A stretch of DNA of 64,000 bases from Megasphaera vaginalis (ex Bordigoni et al. 2020) (GTDB lineage: Bacteria; Bacillota; Negativicutes; Veillonellales; Megasphaeraceae), in NCBI RefSeq assembly GCF_900240295.1, contig NZ_OEQB01000005.1, positions 1 through 64,000 of the forward strand. Direction: 5' to 3'. A program made the translations under genes and the position numbers. The notes beneath the pieces were generated by a model, which saw nothing but the letters and a program-made list of their open reading frames with translations, ran no database searches and was not told the origin of the DNA. Shown in pieces: positions 13,155 to 50,269 of this stretch; position 1 is the first letter of the stretch; each line of letters opens with the position of its first letter.

Positions 13155-13673
13155 TCATCGTTGCAAAATTTTTTGCGCCAACAACGTCAGCGCCTGCAAA
13201 ACGTCTTCCACCGCTCCTTTGTTGACGATCCTATAGTCGCCGGCATGACGATACAAGGCGATCCGCTCCCGGTAGAGCTCATAGACTTTCTGCGGCCCCG
13301 CCGCCAAAAGCGGTCGTTTGGACACATCAACGTCCGTAACGATGTCATCAGGTGAACGATCGAGAAAGATGAGAATACCCGATTGTTTCAGCAAGTCTAT
13401 ATTCTCGCTTCGTTTAACAACACCGCCACCGGTAGCTACAACAATGCCTTTCCTCGCCGCCAATTTTTCCGAGGCCCGTATCTCAGCCTGACGAAAACAG
13501 TCTTCACTGACGGCAAACAATTCCGCAATCGTTCGCCCTTCCATTGCTTCAATATAACCGTCGACATCGACAAACTCGCGGTCCAGGCACTGTGCCAGCC
13601 GTCTGCCGAAGGTCGTCTTGCCGCTGCCGGGCATACCGATGATAACAATATTTTGCTCGTTGTTCATATCCAT
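13155..13673 (-). CDS. aroK: Shikimate kinase
   Basis: The enzyme phosphorylates shikimate at O3 with ATP. At 172 residues it has the usual length. The P-loop GMPGSGKTT spans residues 13-21, the shikimate-binding acidic VDVDGYIE follows near 35, and the GGG loop VVATGGGVV near 80. The lid arginine region is DVSKRPLL. Its start overlaps the end of aroE by 10 bases and it is the last gene of the aro operon. Confidence 0.95.
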   Translation of the reverse strand: MDMNNEQNIVIIGMPGSGKTTFGRRLAQCLDREFVDVDGYIEAMEGRTIAELFAVSEDCFRQAEIRASEKLAARKGIVVATGGGVVKRSENIDLLKQSGILIFLDRSPDDIVTDVDVSKRPLLAAGPQKVYELYRERIALYRHAGDYRIVNKGAVEDVLQALTLLAQKILQR

Positions 13674-14488
13674 GACTCCATTTCCTGCGTCAATTTTTCC
13701 ATTACTGCATTACCGATTTTCCGTCCCAGCCATATTTCTTCGGAGCCGATCGCCTGTGCGACAAGCATGTACATACCGTTCAGTACGACGGCCTGATGCT
13801 GTTCGCCATATTGGAGAAATAAGGTCCGACGCGGATTGTAAATCAGATCGACGACGGCACGATACGCGGCCACAACCGCCTCTGCTACCGGTGATACATG
13901 AATATCCGGCGCCATGCCGACAGGGGTACAGTTAATAAGAACGTCGCCGCCGCATTGCCGGCGTAAATCGTCATAAGAGATCAGCGCCGCTCCTGCAGCC
14001 ATTGCAAAACGGCTGAATGCCGGTTTTTCCTGCGGAGTCCGCGATACGACGGTGATCTGAGCCGCGCCTTCATCGGCGAGGTACTGAACGACGGCCCGTG
14101 CGGCGCCGCCAGTTCCCAAAACCGTGCATTGCCGGCCATCGACGGCAATACCGGCGTGACGCAAAGACCGGCCGAAACCGCTGTAATCCGTATTATAACC
14201 GAAACAACCGTCTTCCCTGACGTGAATGGTATTGACGGCACCGATGCGTTCGGCCTCCGGAGAAAGGCCTGTCAAATGCGGTATAACATCCAGCTTATAC
14301 GATATCGTCACATTCATTCCGCCATATTCTTTCGCCAACTCGCACAACTCGTCGGCAATGTGTTCCCGATCCATTTCCAACAGACTGTACTCATGCCGGT
14401 TCGACAACGACAACAGGCTGAAAAGACGCTTATGAATCTCCGGCGAGCAGCTATGTCCCAGTTTTCCTCCAATCAGTCCCAATTTCAT
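13664..14488 (-). CDS. aroE: Shikimate dehydrogenase (biosynthetic)
   Basis: This 274-residue NADP-dependent enzyme reduces 3-dehydroshikimate to shikimate. Shikimate-binding Ser13 and Ser15 lie in GHSCSPEIH, catalytic Lys65 in NVTISYKLD and Asp101 in GYNTDYSGF. The nucleotide motif VLGTGGAARA follows. The ATG at 14488 has GGAGG at ideal spacing and gives the normal N-terminus MKLGLIGGKLGHS. Upstream in-frame codons lack family similarity. It is preceded by a 174-base gap after aroC, the only sizeable gap in the operon. Confidence 0.95.
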   Translation of the reverse strand: MKLGLIGGKLGHSCSPEIHKRLFSLLSLSNRHEYSLLEMDREHIADELCELAKEYGGMNVTISYKLDVIPHLTGLSPEAERIGAVNTIHVREDGCFGYNTDYSGFGRSLRHAGIAVDGRQCTVLGTGGAARAVVQYLADEGAAQITVVSRTPQEKPAFSRFAMAAGAALISYDDLRRQCGGDVLINCTPVGMAPDIHVSPVAEAVVAAYRAVVDLIYNPRRTLFLQYGEQHQAVVLNGMYMLVAQAIGSEEIWLGRKIGNAVMEKLTQEMESWI

Positions 14489-14662
14489 CAGTAATCCTCC
14501 CTTATGATACAATGTGACGCGAATTCGTCTTCTCCGGCGTCCCGTCATACGGCCACTTGCACGGTCTTTCAGACAACTAATCGCACGGCGCCGGAAAGCC
14601 GTTCCCCCGCCTTTCCGGCAGACTATGCTGACGGTAAAAGCACAGCCCTTCTCCACCGGTTT

Positions 14663-15772
14663 TTACTTGCCGTCATACGGCCTGCCGCTTTTGGCGGTAA
14701 GCATGATATCGAGAACGGTCCAGGCAGCGGCAGCCTCTACGGCAGGCAACGCACGCTGCACAATAGCGGGATCATGCCGTCCGGGAACGGAAAGCTTGCA
14801 ATTCGTTCCGCTGCTCCTATCGATCGTATCCTGTTCTTTGGCAATTGACGGTGTTCCCTTGATCACGGCCTGAAAGAGGACGGGCATCCCGTTCGTAATG
14901 CCGCCGTTAATGCCGCCGTTATGATTTGTCCGCGTCCGCACACGACCGTCGTCATCATAATAAAAGGAATCATTTCCTTCCGATCCCGTCATCGCCGCCA
15001 AAGCAAAGCCGTCGCCGAAAGAGACGCCTTTTACTGCCGGAATGGCAAAGATCATGTGACTGAGCTTGCTTTCAACGGAGTCGAAGAAAGGATCGCCCAT
15101 ACCTGCCGGTAGTCCCGTAATCATGCATTCCACAATACCGCCGACGGAATCGCCGTCGCGCTTCGCCTGCAAAATTGCTTTTTCCATTTCCTCTTCTTTA
15201 GTCGGATCGAGTACGGCCAACGCATTCTGCGATAATCGTCCGAAAAGCGCCTTATCTTTGCCTAGAGAGCAAAAGCGACGATCACAGATGTTCCCCAATT
15301 GCAGGATATGCGCTCCTATCGCAATTCTGTCCAAAGCCAGAATCTGTTTGGCCACGGCGCCGGCAAAAACGAGCGGCGCCGTCAACCGTCCCGAAAAATG
15401 ACCGCCGCCGCGGTAATCATTATAGCCGCCGTAACGGACGTTGCCGCTATAATCGGCATGACCGGGACGCATAATATGCCGCAGCCGCGCATAGTCTTCT
15501 GCGCGCTGATCTTCATTGGCAATGCGTACGCAAAGCGGCGTTCCCGTCGTAAAGCCGTTAAAAAAACCGCTTTCCACAGAAAACACGTCGTGTTCCCGGC
15601 GTTTTGTTGACAACTCGTTTCGTCCCGGCGCACGGCGCCGCATCTCTTGCGACACAGCCTGCCAGTCGAGGGAAACACCTGCCGGAATCCCGTCCAATAC
15701 AGCGCCGATACAAGGACCGTGAGATTCACCGAAAATGGTCAGTGACGCCGTTTCTCCCCATGTGTTGCTCAT
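14663..15772 (-). CDS. aroC: Chorismate synthase
   Basis: The enzyme converts EPSP to chorismate using reduced FMN. The 369-residue protein has all signatures: GESHGPCIGAVLDGIPAG at residues 15-32, the RPGHADYSG segment, the RGGGHFSGR loop, and the C-terminal RSSGTNCKLSVPGRHDP. Its start overlaps the aroA stop by four bases, implying translational coupling. Confidence 0.97.
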   Translation of the reverse strand: MSNTWGETASLTIFGESHGPCIGAVLDGIPAGVSLDWQAVSQEMRRRAPGRNELSTKRREHDVFSVESGFFNGFTTGTPLCVRIANEDQRAEDYARLRHIMRPGHADYSGNVRYGGYNDYRGGGHFSGRLTAPLVFAGAVAKQILALDRIAIGAHILQLGNICDRRFCSLGKDKALFGRLSQNALAVLDPTKEEEMEKAILQAKRDGDSVGGIVECMITGLPAGMGDPFFDSVESKLSHMIFAIPAVKGVSFGDGFALAAMTGSEGNDSFYYDDDGRVRTRTNHNGGINGGITNGMPVLFQAVIKGTPSIAKEQDTIDRSSGTNCKLSVPGRHDPAIVQRALPAVEAAAAWTVLDIMLTAKSGRPYDGK

Positions 15773-17061
15773 CTGCTTCCCTCCTGTCGAATAGTGCCGC
15801 CTAACCGTTGAAAGTCACGCCAAAACTGCGGATACGATTTGGCAACGGACTCGGCGCCATCAATCACGACAGTGTTTACCGCCCGCTGTGACGCAACGGC
15901 CAGCGCCATCGCCACGCGGTGGTCGTTCCAAGCCGAAACGGTACCGCCATGTAAGAAAGGCACGCCGTGGATAACGAGACCGTTTTTTTCTTCTTCAATA
16001 TCGGCCCCCAAAGAATTCAACTCCGTCGCCATAGCATGAAGCCGATCACATTCCTTGAACCGCAGCCGGCCGGCATTAACGATCTGTGTCGTTCCTGTGC
16101 TGCAAGCTGCCAATGCCGTCAATACCGGCGCCAGATCGGGGCAATCGGCTACATCGACGATACAGCCCCGCGTTCTTGTCGGCAGGGACTGAATCCCCTG
16201 CGCCGTTCGCCGCACGTCCCCTCCCATATTCGAGAGAATATCCAGGATGACCGCATCGCCCTGCCGTGAATGTTCCGTTAAGCCGCTGCAGAGAATAGCC
16301 TCCCCGATAGCTGCCGCGGCAAGCCAGAAGGCGGCTTGTGAAAAATCGCCTTCCACCTGATACCGCCCCGGCTGATATACTTGATTGCCGGTAATGTGAA
16401 ACGTATCGTTTCCGCTTTTTTCAACGCCGACGCCATACTGCCGCAGACACGCCAACGTCAACTCGACGTAGCTTGCCGACTCCAGCGCCGTCGTACTGTG
16501 CAGCACTGAATCGCCAGGCAACAGCGGCAACGCAAACAGCAGTCCTGTAAAAAATTGCGAACTGACGTTACCCGGCAGCGCATAGTACCCCGGCGTCAAT
16601 TCGCCGCGCACAGTCAACGGCAGTCCAGCATCGTTTTTTTGGCAACAGATCCGGCGCGCGTTAAAGAGATCGTAATAAGGCTGCAACGGTCGTTCGGCTA
16701 AGCGCCCGCTACCGGAAAACGTCACCGTATTACCGCTGGCAAGGGCGAGGGGAATCAAAAACCGCAAGGTCGAACCCGATTCGCCGCAGTCGGCAAAAAG
16801 GGCCGAGTTCCGCCGCCGCAAGCCGCCGCGGATATGCAACGTCCGTTGCGCTGGCCGCGGCGCCGCTGCCGTCTCAATCTCCGCCCCCAGCAGTCGAAGT
16901 ACCCTGCAGGTCGCTGCAAGATCCTGCGAAGGCGATACGTTTTCCACTACCGTTTCGCCATTCGCCAAGGCGGCGCAGATTAAATGGCGGTGTCCCATGC
17001 TTTTTGATGACGGTATCGTCACGGTGCCGTGCAATTTCTTCGGTGTAATGACTACCTTCAT
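15769..17061 (-). CDS. aroA: 3-phosphoshikimate 1-carboxyvinyltransferase (EPSP synthase)
   Basis: The enzyme joins PEP to shikimate-3-phosphate. The 430-residue protein has the two-domain inside-out fold motifs SSKSMGHRHLICAALANGE near residue 20 and the PEP loop DCGESGSTLRFLIP near residue 90. In Escherichia the equivalent loop is GNAGTAMRP, so the proline after Arg is Phe here, a change that may lower glyphosate affinity. SGSGRLAERPL and the late DHRVAMALAVA are also present. It overlaps aroB and aroC by four bases each. Confidence 0.95.
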   Translation of the reverse strand: MKVVITPKKLHGTVTIPSSKSMGHRHLICAALANGETVVENVSPSQDLAATCRVLRLLGAEIETAAAPRPAQRTLHIRGGLRRRNSALFADCGESGSTLRFLIPLALASGNTVTFSGSGRLAERPLQPYYDLFNARRICCQKNDAGLPLTVRGELTPGYYALPGNVSSQFFTGLLFALPLLPGDSVLHSTTALESASYVELTLACLRQYGVGVEKSGNDTFHITGNQVYQPGRYQVEGDFSQAAFWLAAAAIGEAILCSGLTEHSRQGDAVILDILSNMGGDVRRTAQGIQSLPTRTRGCIVDVADCPDLAPVLTALAACSTGTTQIVNAGRLRFKECDRLHAMATELNSLGADIEEEKNGLVIHGVPFLHGGTVSAWNDHRVAMALAVASQRAVNTVVIDGAESVAKSYPQFWRDFQRLGGTIRQEGSR

Positions 17062-18131
17062 CGCAATCCTTCCCTTCCGAGATAATCCGGCATCGCTTCA
17101 CAGGCAACGGAAATCAGTTTTCCCCGGCCGATCGCCGGAATAATCGCCAACGTCATCGTGTCCCCGCGCCGCTTCTTGTCTTTCTGGAGAAACGGCATGA
17201 GCCGTTCATCTGGCAGCGAAATTTCCGTCGGCAGCCGGTACCTCTCCAGCAGCTTTATCAGCCGCGCCGTCGTACCTTTTTCCGTCAATCCTTGCCGTTC
17301 CGTTCCCGCCGTGATGCGGACCATGCCGATAGACACGGCTTCACCGTGCAAATATGTACCGTAACCGCAAGCCCGTTCCACGGCATGACCGAAGGTATGG
17401 CCGAAATTGAGCAGCATCCGTTTCCCCTGATCATGGACATCGGCCGCCACGATACGGGCTTTTTCCCGACAGCAAGCGGTAATAATCTCTTCCCAATACC
17501 TGCCGATCGTTGCCGGACTCTGTCGTTCAAGAAAAGAAAAAATCCGGTCATTGCAAATGGCACCGTATTTGATGACCTCGCCCAATCCGTCACCGACACA
17601 CCGCGGCGAAAGAGAGTCCAACAAATCGGGATCAATGTACACGGCGGCAGGTTGGCAAAAGCTGCCGACCTGGTTTTTACCGCCAGCCAAATTCACGGCC
17701 GTCTTACCGCCGACGCTGCTGTCAACTTGCGCCAACAAAGTCGTCGGCATTTGAATGTAGCGTATTCCCCGCAAATACGTTGCCGCCGCGAACCCGCCGA
17801 GATCACCGACAACGCCGCCGCCAAACGCAATCAGCGTATCGCTGCGGCTGAGGCCAAAGGCTGCCAAGCTATTATAAACGGCAGCCAGCGTCGTCAGATT
17901 CTTGTGCTCTTCTCCCGGCTCAAGACGAATCACCTGTACGGCGGCGCCGGCGCTGCGCAAGGACTGCGACAGTTTTTCACCGTACAAAGCAGCCAGCGTC
18001 GTATCCGTAAGGACGGCAACTTTCCCTTTCAGCACCGCTGCCGGTAGCAGCCCCGCCGCCTGTTTCAGCAAACCGCGGGAAATATGGATATCATAAGCAT
18101 TGTTCGGCAGTGAAACATGTAGATTATTCAT
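17058..18131 (-). CDS. aroB: 3-dehydroquinate synthase
   Basis: The enzyme cyclises DAHP to 3-dehydroquinate with NAD and a divalent metal. The 357-residue protein has the NAD-binding FGGGVVGDLGGFAAATYLRG at residues 102-121 and the QMPTTLLAQVDSSVGGKTAVN active-site region. Metal-binding histidines lie in NFGHTFGHAVE and in GEAVSIGM. It overlaps tyrA by 8 bases and aroA by 4. Confidence 0.97.
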   Translation of the reverse strand: MNNLHVSLPNNAYDIHISRGLLKQAAGLLPAAVLKGKVAVLTDTTLAALYGEKLSQSLRSAGAAVQVIRLEPGEEHKNLTTLAAVYNSLAAFGLSRSDTLIAFGGGVVGDLGGFAAATYLRGIRYIQMPTTLLAQVDSSVGGKTAVNLAGGKNQVGSFCQPAAVYIDPDLLDSLSPRCVGDGLGEVIKYGAICNDRIFSFLERQSPATIGRYWEEIITACCREKARIVAADVHDQGKRMLLNFGHTFGHAVERACGYGTYLHGEAVSIGMVRITAGTERQGLTEKGTTARLIKLLERYRLPTEISLPDERLMPFLQKDKKRRGDTMTLAIIPAIGRGKLISVACEAMPDYLGREGLR

Positions 18132-18987
18132 GAAGTAAATCCCTTCTCCGTCTGGACGCCTCTTCCAGAAAAGCTTTCAAGCGCGCCCCGTCTTTTGCTT
18201 CCAGCAGTTTTGCAAAATGGCCGAGAGTCTGCTGAAAGGCCGTTATTTCGTGCAGCACATTCTCCCGATTGGAAAGAAGCAGATCTCGCCATAAAGGCGC
18301 GTTGATATTGGCAACACGCGTGCCGTCCCGAAAGCTGCCGGCAATAAAATATTTCGTAGCCTCGTCCATCGCTTCACAGTTGATCAGCGCCGTCGCCAAA
18401 ACATGAGGCAAATTGCTTGTATACGCGATCAACCGATCGTGTTCTGCCGCAGTAACACAGGCGACGCGAGCGCATCCCAAATCCTTTGCCATGGCCGCAA
18501 TGGCGTCAATATTCTCCCCTTTGTTGTCCGGCGTCGGAATCAAAATATAATTGGCGCCGTCGAAAATATCCGCCCGTGACCTGCCGTACCCCTGTCCTTC
18601 GCAGCCGGCCATAGGATGACCGGCAACAAAATCCATGCCGTCGCCGAGATAAGGCTTCACCGCAACGGCTAAATTGCCTTTGATCCCGGCAATATCCGTA
18701 ATAACAACATGCGGTGAAAAATGCGCTGCATTGGCTTTGATGAAACGGCACATCGCGGCGGCAGGCGTACAGAATATGATCAGCGCCGCATCCCTTAAAA
18801 CGGTGCCTCCTGTCGTGTATATTTCATCTACACAGCCGTCGGCCAAGCCGTTTTCCAACGTACGTTGATCGGCATCAAAAGCCAATATCCGTTTAACGCC
18901 CCGTCGTTTCAGCGCCTTAGCATAAGAACCGCCCATCAGTCCCAGCCCGACGATGGCAACACACCGGTCAACAAGATTTTCGTTCAT
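18124..18987 (-). CDS. tyrA: Prephenate dehydrogenase
   Basis: The enzyme oxidatively decarboxylates prephenate to 4-hydroxyphenylpyruvate, the tyrosine branch. The 287-residue protein starts with an NAD fold (IVGLGLMGGSYAKALK at about residues 12-27) and has the conserved GHPMAGCEGQGYG and the C-terminal SFRDGTRVA. There is no chorismate mutase or ACT domain, so it is the minimal form. The ATG at 18987 has GGGGGAGAAG upstream. It lies between aroF and aroB, with only 14 bases after aroF. Confidence 0.93.
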   Translation of the reverse strand: MNENLVDRCVAIVGLGLMGGSYAKALKRRGVKRILAFDADQRTLENGLADGCVDEIYTTGGTVLRDAALIIFCTPAAAMCRFIKANAAHFSPHVVITDIAGIKGNLAVAVKPYLGDGMDFVAGHPMAGCEGQGYGRSRADIFDGANYILIPTPDNKGENIDAIAAMAKDLGCARVACVTAAEHDRLIAYTSNLPHVLATALINCEAMDEATKYFIAGSFRDGTRVANINAPLWRDLLLSNRENVLHEITAFQQTLGHFAKLLEAKDGARLKAFLEEASRRRRDLLHE

Positions 18988-19001
18988 ATCTTCTCCCCCC
19001 G

Positions 19002-20021
19002 TTATAATATCCTTCGTCCCACGGCACAAGCCACTTGTCGCAGCGATTTCATCATTTCGGCGAACATGGCCGGAGTAACGGACTGTGCACCGTCGCACCA
19101 CGCGTGTTCCGGATCGTTATGCACCTCGATCATCACGCCGTCGGCGCCGACGGCGACAGCAGCCTTGGCCAGATCAGCAACCATCCAGCTCTTGCCGGCT
19201 GCATGACTGGGATCAACGATAACCGGTAAGTGACTCAGCCGTTTGACGGCAAGGACAGCGCTCAGATCCAACGTATTGCGCGTAAAATTTTCAAAGGTGC
19301 GGATTCCCCGCTCGCAAAGAATAACATTTCGATTGCCTTCCGCCATAATATATTCTGCCGACATCAGCCATTCTTCGACGGTAGCGCTGAGACCGCGCTT
19401 CAACAAAACCGGTTTCTTCGTCCGCCCCAAGGCCTTCAGCAAATCAAAATTCTGCATATTGCGCGCGCCGACTTGGATCAGATCTACGTCATTTTTCAAA
19501 AAAGCAGCCACCTTGTCGACTGACATGATCTCCGTCACCACCGGAATCTGTTCCTTCTTGCTCGCACGGCAAAGCATTTCCAGCCCCTTATCCCCCAATC
19601 CCTGGAAAGCGTACGGTGACGTTCGCGGTTTAAAAGCACCGCCGCGCAGCATCGCCGCGCCGCTGCTATGAACGGCGTGAGCAACGCTCTCTATCTGCCG
19701 CGGCGTTTCAATTGAACAAGGACCGGCAATAACCGCCACTGCCGGCCCGCCGACGGGAATACCGGCGACGCTAACAACGCTGTTTTTCCGGTGAAAAGCT
19801 CTGCTTGCCCGCTTGAACGGTTCCGCTACAGGAATAATATTGGCAATGAAGGCGTACTGCCGCAGCGCCGCCAACTCGACAGGCGCCGTATCGCCGATGA
19901 GTCCGAAGGCCGGCCCTTCAGCCCTGTCAACCCGTTCCACCTGCAGTCCTTGAGCCGTAAAATAAGCGGCCAGTCCGTTCATCTCCGCCTCTGTTGTCTC
20001 TGCTTTCAATAAAACGATCAT
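19002..20021 (-). CDS. aroF: DAHP synthase, type I-beta with N-terminal regulatory domain
   Basis: The first enzyme of the aromatic pathway joins PEP and erythrose-4-phosphate. The 339-residue protein has a ferredoxin-like N-terminal domain (about 1-65), which in relatives such as Thermotoga gives feedback inhibition by Tyr/Phe. The KDO8P/DAHP-synthase barrel follows. The metal Cys102 lies in VIAGPCSIE, with GGAFKPRTSPYAFQG next and metal His in VDPSHAAGK. The ATG at 20021 follows a GAGGAGGGCAGGA region. Immediately upstream is a terminator hairpin and a leader ORF rich in aromatic codons, so expression of the whole operon is probably attenuated. Confidence 0.96.
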   Translation of the reverse strand: MIVLLKAETTEAEMNGLAAYFTAQGLQVERVDRAEGPAFGLIGDTAPVELAALRQYAFIANIIPVAEPFKRASRAFHRKNSVVSVAGIPVGGPAVAVIAGPCSIETPRQIESVAHAVHSSGAAMLRGGAFKPRTSPYAFQGLGDKGLEMLCRASKKEQIPVVTEIMSVDKVAAFLKNDVDLIQVGARNMQNFDLLKALGRTKKPVLLKRGLSATVEEWLMSAEYIMAEGNRNVILCERGIRTFENFTRNTLDLSAVLAVKRLSHLPVIVDPSHAAGKSWMVADLAKAAVAVGADGVMIEVHNDPEHAWCDGAQSVTPAMFAEMMKSLRQVACAVGRRIL

Positions 20022-20042
20022 GCTTCCTGCCCTCCTCAAACC

Positions 20043-20072
20043 AAAAAGGGACAGGCTCCATGAGCCTGCCCC
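20043..20072 (-). terminator. Leader terminator (attenuator) directly before aroF
   Basis: On the minus strand GGGGCAGGCTC and GAGCCTGTCCC form an 11-bp stem (one G-U pair) with a three-base loop, followed by TTTTT. It lies after the leader-peptide stop codon and about 20 bases before the aroF start, a position that makes sense only if it is regulated. Confidence 0.9.
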
Positions 20073-20107
20073 TCCGATACTGCAACGGTCGCTGACGACG
20101 CTGTCGC

Positions 20108-20269
20108 TTATACGGCAAAAGAAGTATCATCCTGAATTCGCCTCATGGTCTTGCCTATGCGGTTGAATAAGAGGCACCAAAAATAGCCGGCGCTAACGAC
20201 GAAATAGCTCCAGCTAAAATAGATATACCCGTATTCAATTGCTTGCAATGAGCCGAACGACGTATTCAT
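20108..20269 (-). CDS. Aromatic-rich leader peptide of the aro operon (53 residues)
   Basis: The ORF starts at ATG 20269 after AAAGGA and ends with TAA. It begins MNTSFGSLQAIEYGYIYFSW. Between residues 13 and 35 there are 11 aromatic residues in 23 positions (five Tyr, four Phe, two Trp). It lies between a consensus promoter and an intrinsic terminator ahead of aroF, the classical layout of ribosome-mediated attenuation: scarcity of charged tRNA-Tyr/Phe/Trp would stall ribosomes in this stretch and favour readthrough. The hydrophobic stretch followed by NRIGKTMRR could alternatively be a small one-helix membrane protein. I do not recognise it from any named family. Confidence 0.75.
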   Translation of the reverse strand: MNTSFGSLQAIEYGYIYFSWSYFVVSAGYFWCLLFNRIGKTMRRIQDDTSFAV

Positions 20270-20316
20270 TGTGCAAACATCCTTTACCGATGATCTTTTA
20301 TCAACAAGTTGTGCCT

Positions 20317-20345
20317 ATTGTATTCCAGCCCCTGCCGTTTGTCAA
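20317..20345 (-). promoter_or_regulatory. Consensus promoter of the aro leader and operon
   Basis: On the minus strand an exact TTGACA (20340-20345), a 17-base spacer and TACAAT (20317-20322). Transcription would begin near 20310, giving a leader of about 265 nt before the terminator. Confidence 0.9.
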
Positions 20346-20363
20346 GAGGCGGAATCGCGCAGA

Positions 20364-21305
20364 CTACCAGCTGGGCGGTATGGCCGGTGTCACGACGCGA
20401 AATGTATATCCCTTTTCCTTGAGCAGATGGATGACGTCGGGCAAGGAATTAACCGTCGCCCCATGACCGGCTGAATCGTGCATAAGAATAACGAGGTGTG
20501 TGTTCAGGTATGGCCGTTTCTCCAACTGACTGCGGATATTTTCCAATTCCTGAGACGACGTCTTGCCGCTGCCGTCCGCATCTCCGTTCAACGCATTCCA
20601 CCCGACTTCTATATACCCCAAATCACGAACAGCCTGCCAATGAGCCGCCGTAAAATGTCCGGCCGTACCGCCGGGCGCTCGGGAAATGATAGGCCGTACA
20701 TGAAGAATCTGATAGATCCGTTGTTCCGTCTTTTCCATTTCATCCGTGTAGGCCTGGGCCGACGCGTAAAGCTTTGCATAATCATGACTGTAAGAATGAA
20801 GTCCGATCGCATGCCCTTCCTGATAGATGCGCTTTACCGTTTGCGGATTGTTTTCCACGTTTTTACCGACGAGAAAAAACGTGGCGCGGACATCTTCCGA
20901 CTTTAAAATATCGAGTATTTTTTGCGTATTTTCCTTGTTCGGCCCGTCGTCAAAAGTCAGATAGACGACGTGATCTCCGTAATAATATTCCCGCTCCGTC
21001 CCGCGATAATAGGTCAACGGCAGTCCTCGCTCACGACGTTGCTGCAAAGTGTACGCATCATAAACCGGTAAGGCATTATCTGCCGGCGGCAAAACGAAAT
21101 CCTTATCCAGTTTGACGACTTGCGCCGTGTCAGCAGCAGGTAACCCGAACGCTTTACCCAGCTTAAAAACGTCCGCCGTACCGGCAGGCGGCGTTTCCAC
21201 CGCCAGTCGCAACTCTTCGGCCCAAGCCCTATGACCTGTTATGGTCCAACCGACCAACACCAAAATGCAAACGGCAACAACGCCGATAAATCCTCGTAAT
21301 TTCAC
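20364..21305 (-). CDS. Secreted polysaccharide deacetylase (NodB domain)
   Basis: This 313-residue exported or membrane-anchored deacetylase probably acts on peptidoglycan or another N-acetylated glycan. A hydrophobic N-terminal segment (residues 5-25, ending near AWAEE) is a signal or anchor. A linker with two similar VFKLGKAFGLP/VVKLDKDFVLP stretches follows. The NodB domain carries TFDDGP, the zinc pair in LHSYSHD, RAPGG, and the C-terminal LMHDS. The start is GTG with GAGGGA upstream. It is the last gene of a tight minus-strand group with yqeC 14 bases upstream. Confidence 0.93.
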   Translation of the reverse strand: MKLRGFIGVVAVCILVLVGWTITGHRAWAEELRLAVETPPAGTADVFKLGKAFGLPAADTAQVVKLDKDFVLPPADNALPVYDAYTLQQRRERGLPLTYYRGTEREYYYGDHVVYLTFDDGPNKENTQKILDILKSEDVRATFFLVGKNVENNPQTVKRIYQEGHAIGLHSYSHDYAKLYASAQAYTDEMEKTEQRIYQILHVRPIISRAPGGTAGHFTAAHWQAVRDLGYIEVGWNALNGDADGSGKTSSQELENIRSQLEKRPYLNTHLVILMHDSAGHGATVNSLPDVIHLLKEKGYTFRVVTPAIPPSW

Positions 21306-35837: not shown

Positions 35838-36079
35838 AAAAAAGCCACCATCTCCTCATACAGAGACGGTGGCCCGCGGTTCCACTCTGCTTACAGTCAC
35901 CAAGACTGTACTCAACAGCCTCTAACGCGGCCAACCGGAAAGATCTACTGGTGTTCAATCTTCCTGCTCCCGAAGGCATTCCATCCTACGCCGCTTTCTG
36001 TGCAGGCTCTCAGCCGCTGACCTGCGCTCTCTGGATGACTTTGTAGGTGTACTTGTTTCGGTCATTGCATTCAATGTTT
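35838..36079 (-). promoter_or_regulatory. T-box riboswitch leader
   Basis: On the minus strand the T-box core AGAGTGGAACCGCGG lies at 35874-35888. A terminator hairpin GCCACC..GGTGGC with a T-run follows (35838-35873), the two being mutually exclusive with the antiterminator. Upstream, Stem I shows the AGAGAG motif and a distal GCAGG..CCTGC arm. A GAA-TGC-CTTCGGGAGC segment fits the usual specifier context, suggesting TGC (Cys), but alternative pairing of CATCC with GGATG leaves this uncertain. Binding of uncharged tRNA would open the operon. Confidence 0.92.
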
Positions 36080-50105: not shown

Positions 50106-50130
50106 TACTTTCAACAACTGCATACCGTTT

Positions 50131-50269
50131 TCATCAAGAGCAGCAGAGGGACTGGCCCTGTGAAGCTGCGGCAACCTCCTTTCGGGGAAAGGTGCTAATT
50201 CCAGCGGTTTTACCGACAGATGAAGGAGCATATACACAAGCCGTCATCGTCATGACGGCTTTTCTTTTG
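50131..50269 (+). promoter_or_regulatory. SAM-I (S-box) riboswitch with terminator
   Basis: The aptamer shows the S-box core AGAGGGACTGGCCC, TGAAGCTGCGGCAACC and GGTGCTAATTCC, closed by a P1 stem between ATCA near 50132 and the GATGAAGG near 50220. A terminator hairpin GCCGTCAT-CGTC-ATGACGGC with a T-run follows (50238-50269). High SAM should promote termination and so lower metQ expression. Confidence 0.95.

Follow-up and report, generated by a model that had tools for sequence, protein, structure and literature searches.

The aro operon of Megasphaera vaginalis is preceded by a short ORF rich in Tyr, Phe and Trp codons, which very probably belongs to a ribosome-mediated transcription attenuator through which the common aromatic (shikimate) operon would sense its pooled end products. 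The ORF itself, the selection on its aromatic codons, two pairing partners that coevolve and the tie to the aro operon, all read from sequence, carry this interpretation. The locus lies on the minus strand of the window, by which we mean the whole stretch of 64,000 nt analysed (positions 1 to 64,000 of contig NZ_OEQB01000005.1). As shown in Table 1, promoter, Shine-Dalgarno-like site, aromatic ORF, terminator and aroF operon follow one another. The order given in a preliminary description, from the promoter through a 53-codon ORF with 11 aromatics in 23 residues and the terminator to aroF-tyrA-aroB-aroA-aroC-aroE-aroK, was confirmed by the sequence and by Pfam matches.

Table 1. Features of the aromatic leader locus and the related T-box upstream of trpE. 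Positions are those of the window unless otherwise indicated.
Feature	Position	Strand	Evidence or remark
Promoter TTGACA-17-TACAAT, sigma-70-type	20317..20345	-	11/12 matches; -35/-10 kept in Megasphaera relatives
Shine-Dalgarno-like AAAGGA	20280..20285	-	10 nt 5' of leader ATG
Putative leader peptide ORF, 53 aa, MNTSFGSLQAIEYGYIYFSWSYFVVSAGYFWCLLFNRIGKTMRRIQDDTSFAV	20108..20269	-	ATG start; kept upstream of relatives' aroF
Outer helix P1, 5' arm UUGAAUA	20232..20238	-	MFE; pairs with 20169-20163
Predicted stall zone, codons 13-35, 11 Tyr/Phe/Trp codons	20165..20233	-	Sequence; pN and pS of the Megasphaera group (see text)
Stem P2 inside the ORF, UAGCUGGAGCUA - UUUCGUCGU - UAGCGCCGGCUA	20184..20216	-	Stem scan, covariation
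Outer helix P1, 3' arm UAUUCAA	20163..20169	-	MFE, alignment
Antiterminator strand AT1, CCAUGAG (codons 41-43)	20142..20148	-	Pairs with 20064-20058
Inner antiterminator helix, 5' arm UGAUACU (contains GATAC)	20123..20129	-	Folding; nested in AT1:AT2; this strain only
Inner antiterminator helix, 3' arm AGUAUCG (contains GTATC)	20075..20081	-	Folding
AT2, CUCAUGG, upper terminator 5' arm and loop	20058..20064	-	Alignments, duplex test, folding
Intrinsic terminator and U tract	20043..20075	-	GCAGGCUCAUGNGAGCCUGC-U(n) kept in Megasphaera group
aroF (DAHP synthase, TIGR01361/PF00793), first operon gene	19002..20021	-	Profile matches
tyrA, aroB, aroA, aroC, aroE, aroK	13155..19101	-	Pfam matches
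T-box below cut-off, UGG specifier, directly upstream of trpE	G000:C5:137453-137691 (outside window)	-	

The promoter is unremarkable on its own, because 0.6 promoter-like sites are expected by chance in a region of 501 nt. The aligned leaders of relatives have a GGAG-like site at the position of this Shine-Dalgarno-like sequence. The aromatic residues of the stall zone are Y13, Y15, Y17, F18, W20, Y22, F23, Y29, F30, W31 and F35 (11/23), so that the ORF, in its putative translation, is short and rich in end-product codons, as is typical of a leader-peptide attenuator. An intrinsic terminator, also kept in relatives, separates the ORF from the first structural gene. Its position and TTTTT (20047-20043) agreed with the preliminary description, which gave it an 11-bp stem; the stem (20075-20045) comprises 14 pairs by tool count, 8 of them G-C. 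The folding z of the 265-nt leader RNA was -4.8. No family for the leader peptide was found in NCBIfam, and the Rfam 15 models (Trp, Phe, His, Leu, Thr leaders etc.) gave no match in the leader at E <= 1. No T-box (RF00230) was detected at 19000-20400, and neither protein search nor the hairpin pattern revealed a second leader copy in the genome.

Elsewhere in the window, the sole T-box match (35859-36074, minus strand) is just under the Rfam cut-off (87.8 bits, gathering 93), has a UGC (Cys) specifier by alignment and precedes a URO-D-like gene and an amino-acid ABC transporter. An ordinary SAM riboswitch (91 bits) is located before a MetQ-like lipoprotein gene (50128-50226, plus strand).

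The comparison covered regions upstream of aroF in 61 Veillonellales genomes and in 200 genomes sampled from the class, and 14 other genomes belonged to the same genus; lineage group names were assigned by similarity to named records. An aromatic-rich ORF with 6-11 aromatics per 15 residues was found about -200 to -380 nt from aroF in most Negativicutes examined, including nearly all sampled Megasphaera-family, Dialister-like, Veillonella-like, Acidaminococcales-like and Sporomusa/Pelosinus-type genomes. Such an ORF also precedes aroF in many Clostridia (for example SFYYFMFWGFYFSAGYFFYKN in C. difficile CD160), at Peptococcaceae and Epulopiscium loci and at single Synergistaceae, Treponema and Fusobacteriaceae loci. 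As a baseline, an ORF with at least 8 aromatics per 15 residues occurred in 1/284 window tiles of 450 nt, a figure which, like the choice of hairpin, carries some selection bias.

The leaders of relatives contain 7-11 aromatics per 20 codons in frame 0 versus 1-5 in the other two frames. In the Megasphaera group, pN was 0.13 versus a pS of 0.66 in the aromatic codon columns, while the residues after the cluster were nearly free (pN 0.52 versus pS 0.70). Replacements at aromatic positions stayed mostly within Tyr/Phe/Trp (24 versus 6 and 18 versus 4 in two other groups). These comparisons indicate that the aromatic codons are under purifying selection and that the tail of the ORF is not; conservation of the aromatic codons in related genomes, which the preliminary description had proposed to look for, was thereby found, with synonymous change. 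As the conserved UGG sits within a conserved RNA stem, its conservation may be partly structural.

The preliminary description had all three aromatic amino acids sensed at once. This fits the present genome and all 11 non-redundant Megasphaera-family leaders, which combine Tyr, Phe and Trp. It does not extend to every Negativicutes leader: among 54 non-redundant ones Phe is present in 54/54, Tyr in 53/54 and Trp in 45/54. The absence of Trp from 9/54 suggests that sensing of Tyr and Phe is general, with Trp usual and dispensable.

The AT1 block lies inside the leader ORF, just 3' of the aromatic run. Megasphaera alignments show an invariant CAUGRG at this place and CUCAUG in the upper terminator 5' arm and loop. 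Other groups have equivalent blocks with different, lineage-specific sequences: ACGGGUA (codons T-G-K) against UACCCGU in Veillonella, and GAUGAGUC against GACUCAUC, CGUAAAAG against CUUUUACG, GAGUGGUUUGUGC against GCACGAAUCACUC and AUAUAAAUGUGC against GCACAUUUAUAU in L101, L138, L060 and L063, respectively. In the Megasphaera, f18 and Sporomusa groups, most AT1 blocks begin 42-49 nt past the aromatic run. AT1 is read in different frames, encoding Met-Arg in Megasphaera and Asn-Glu in Sporomusa types, indicating that the constraint acts on the RNA.

The partners were tested by duplex energy between the 90 nt after the cluster and the terminator 5' arm and loop of each leader. The test was limited to 90 nt because, with the whole ORF, chance matches had diluted the signal of the Megasphaera and f18 groups. 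The terminator had to lie after the cluster, since for one f18 leader and several of the Sporomusa type the automatic finder had taken the stem inside the ORF. For the 54 Negativicutes leaders, own partners beat permuted ones, as 0/10,000 permutations reached the observed value; 12/10,000 did so when partners were permuted within lineages, where the signal came mainly from the f2 and Sporomusa groups. For 40 leaders from Clostridia and other phyla, own partners gave -14.95 versus -10.12 kcal/mol for permuted ones (0/10,000). In the Megasphaera group alone p was 0.77, a comparison without power because AT1 and AT2 hardly vary there. An unconstrained duplex search in the window ranked GCCGGCU/UGCCUCUU with GGAGGGGCAGGC above CCAUGAG:CUCAUGG. 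By alignments and permutations, AT1 and AT2 coevolve across lineages, and the predicted antiterminator is mutually exclusive with the terminator.

RNA folding was performed with a ribosome placed on the stall zone, another check proposed beforehand. With the ribosome at W20 or Y29, the MFE structure of the window RNA, taken as far as the terminator loop, was the antiterminator, in which CCAUGAG(20148-20142):CUCAUGG(20064-20058) encloses UGAUACU(20129-20123):AGUAUCG(20081-20075) and a hairpin. In ribosome-free window RNA the AT1 block pairs upstream within the ORF instead. Mean linking pairs between the terminator strand and upstream RNA were about 10-13 with a stalled ribosome versus about 6-9 with the ribosome at the stop codon or absent, in every group. 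Two weak pairings had been considered earlier as antiterminator. Folding points to CCAUGAG:CUCAUGG as the main helix, and GATAC/GTATC survived as the nested inner helix. TGCC/GGCA was discarded; it crosses GATAC/GTATC and is absent from the predicted stalled structure.

In the full-length window RNA, stability favours the terminator over the antiterminator by about 10 kcal/mol, and complete RNAs usually favour the terminator as well; the switch must therefore be kinetic and decided during transcription. The distance from the AT1 end to the stop codon is about 34-43 nt in most Megasphaera members and, from the coordinates, about 31 nt for the window CCAUGAG, so that a terminating ribosome would miss AT1 and only the inner strand would lie at the ribosome edge. 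A stop codon within about 20 nt of AT1 is seen in several types of the f18, f2 and Sporomusa groups.

The following course of events would explain these observations; the stalling, the direction of the response and the amino acids that act are what we infer. The ribosome translating the leader ORF would follow RNA polymerase. Whenever charged tRNA runs short for Tyr, Phe or (here) Trp, this ribosome would stall somewhere in codons 13-35, upstream of AT1, leaving AT1 free as the terminator 5' arm and loop emerge. AT1:CUCAUGG would then form and pre-empt the terminator, and the operon would be transcribed. If all tRNAs are charged, the ribosome would pass the cluster and cover AT1 and the inner antiterminator strand while the terminator is made, and transcription would stop there. 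Ribosome-mediated attenuation by an aromatic leader, as first suggested for this locus, is strongly supported at the sequence level by conservation, by selection on the aromatic codons and by the covarying antiterminator.

Two further helices were predicted within the leader. Both arms of the outer helix P1 are kept in Megasphaera, and UGCAUAU/AUAUGCA takes their place in L097/L098. The peptide motif F-S-W-G-Y ... S-A-G-Y corresponds to the two arms of P2 (UAGCUGGAGCUA/UAGCGCCGGCUA in the window), for which compensatory versions were found (AGUUGGAGCU/AGCUUUGACU, GCUUGGGCCAA/UUGGCGCAGGC and AGCCAAGGCU/AGCGUUGGUU). Among 25 sequences, 5/11 pairs change on both sides, 0/500 shuffles reached the covariation score, and 93% of cells are paired, a percentage biased upward because the sequences came from the stem scan. 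Most of the Clostridium leaders shown retain the codons AGC GCT GGC, third bases included. Veillonella has, in place of P2, a different stem of 13 bp that overlaps AT1 and gives the textbook 1:2 / 2:3 / 3:4 layout. P2 probably serves to pause RNA polymerase or to set ribosome-polymerase timing. From Clostridium to Megasphaera, the stem AGCUGGGGCU...AGCGCUGGCU is conserved even at third codon positions. A bolder and rather doubtful reading is that the attenuator family is old and spans several lineages, with this stem as its own pausing or ribosome-timing element, resulting in a graded Tyr/Phe/Trp OR-gate. T-boxes, which read one tRNA each, could not supply such a gate; they occupy the same place in some other lineages.

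The nucleotide-level conservation that P2 shows between Clostridium and Megasphaera, together with its covariation, would also be expected if the conserved RNA (P1/P2) were itself the sensor, a riboswitch-like aptamer to which the ORF is secondary. We consider this improbable, since the aromatic content and frame of the ORF are kept well beyond the stem, Veillonella has a different stem in place of P2, and Rfam gave no match. The same stem bears on a TnaC-like arrest, in which the signal would be a shikimate-pathway metabolite or an aromatic amino acid in free form, and the aromatic peptide would stall its own ribosome in response to it instead of to a shortage of charged tRNA. The motif F-x-W-G-(Y/F)-(F/Y)-F-S-A-G-Y-F does recur from Clostridium to Megasphaera. 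However, its Ser-Ala-Gly is explained by P2, as even Clostridium retains AGC GCT GGC down to the third base, and compensatory changes in P2 alter residues too (SW to SQ, SR and AW). Tyr, Phe and Trp exchange freely at the aromatic positions, which a specific arrest peptide would tolerate poorly, and such an arrest has a low probability, though slightly above that of the aptamer.

That the ORF encodes a small membrane protein which merely chances to precede aroF is the least credible of the alternatives and very improbable. The peptide is hydrophobic and conserved, but there is free variation in its length, in its tail and in the non-aromatic residues that follow the cluster, and the ORF is tied to a covarying terminator and antiterminator. 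In each of 13 Megasphaera genomes the hairpin pattern is found a single time, ahead of the aro operon, and sister lineages replace the leader by a T-box.

By position, the hairpin lies just ahead of aroF in 12/13 of these genomes. In the thirteenth (L241 / L234, G004:C1:18080), this type of aroF is gone, and leader and terminator stand directly before tyrA. Selenomonadaceae-like and some other Negativicutes, 8 in the sample, have a T-box before aroF without the aromatic leader. Specifiers read from the alignment of seven of these T-boxes were UAC (Tyr) in 6/7 and UUC (Phe) in 1/7. T-box matches number 15 in the genome that contains the window, and the one directly upstream of trpE has a UGG specifier, which suggests that the common pathway is placed on the pooled leader and the Trp branch on its own single-residue T-box.

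A prephenate dehydratase (PF00800) gave no match in the same genome (G000), and most Megasphaera relatives carry one about 5 kb downstream of aroF. This strain may lack the usual Phe route; its leader nonetheless retains Phe codons. For one Megasphaera aroF (L103, 55% identical), the 450 nt before the gene contain no aromatic leader and no T-box. Acidaminococcales-like aroF copies without an upstream leader were seen in L134, L141, L143 and L146; some such genomes have two adjacent aroF copies, and the leader may therefore precede the first. In L146, two near-cut-off matches to Whalefall-1 RNA (RF01762) are located near tandem aroF copies (1433-1487 and 2684-2738).

The Megasphaera-type leader resembles the trpL, pheL and ilvG-type attenuators of Proteobacteria in the succession of promoter, leader ORF, alternative hairpins and terminator and in its end-product codons. 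It differs from all three in that the antiterminator strand lies within the ORF, after the codon run. trpL and pheL respond to one amino acid and serve one branch, whereas this leader would serve the common pathway and its pooled products; ilv leaders already pool three amino acids. The Negativicutes T-box before aroF acts on the same gene and likewise works by tRNA charging and termination, but each element reads one amino acid. A tyr-tRNA attenuator was once proposed for aroF of E. coli/Shewanella. Related leaders might be mentioned by Panina et al. 2003 and by Lopatovskaya et al. 2010 (Mol Biol 44:128, cited in PMC4833913).

Apart from that proposal, the open literature searched on aroF leaders yielded only the C. 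glutamicum and Acholeplasma cases, which are the nearest described, and no account of the family in Negativicutes or Clostridia. In C. glutamicum, aroR is reported to encode a Phe-Tyr-Phe leader of aroF which responds to Phe and not to Tyr (Neshat et al. 2014, described in PMC11802643). On that account the two systems share an aromatic-codon leader before an aroF operon, with ribosome stalling raising transcription, and aroR is a precedent for a multi-aromatic aroF leader, to be added to the trp, phe and single-residue leaders with which the preliminary description contrasted the Megasphaera leader. Compared by description, aroR has a short Phe-Tyr-Phe run and the Megasphaera-type leader 6-12 mixed Tyr/Phe/Trp codons per 15, together with a conserved internal stem and lineage-wide conservation that set it apart. 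The Acholeplasma uORFC-13-1 motif before aroF, for which attenuation was proposed, contains one or more Phe codons and is reported only from Acholeplasma and environmental sequences (PMC8632094). It is likewise a uORF with promoter, terminator and a U run that codes for Phe, and is not described for Negativicutes or Clostridia; compared by description, it may belong to the same family as a distant relative. The candidate attenuator would thus use a known mechanism, ribosome-mediated attenuation, in a family that appears new for Negativicutes and Clostridia within the open literature searched.

A shared pathway needs a signal on any of several end products, and a leader with mixed codons is one RNA for that purpose. 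The attenuator would give the common aromatic pathway a regulator in a large group of gut bacteria and clostridia, at loci where T-boxes are usually expected. Orthologous aroF genes carry either this leader or a single-residue T-box (mostly Tyr), a natural exchange that allows a direct test of what pooled sensing costs and gains relative to single sensing, and the family offers a ready sequence signature for annotating aromatic leaders.
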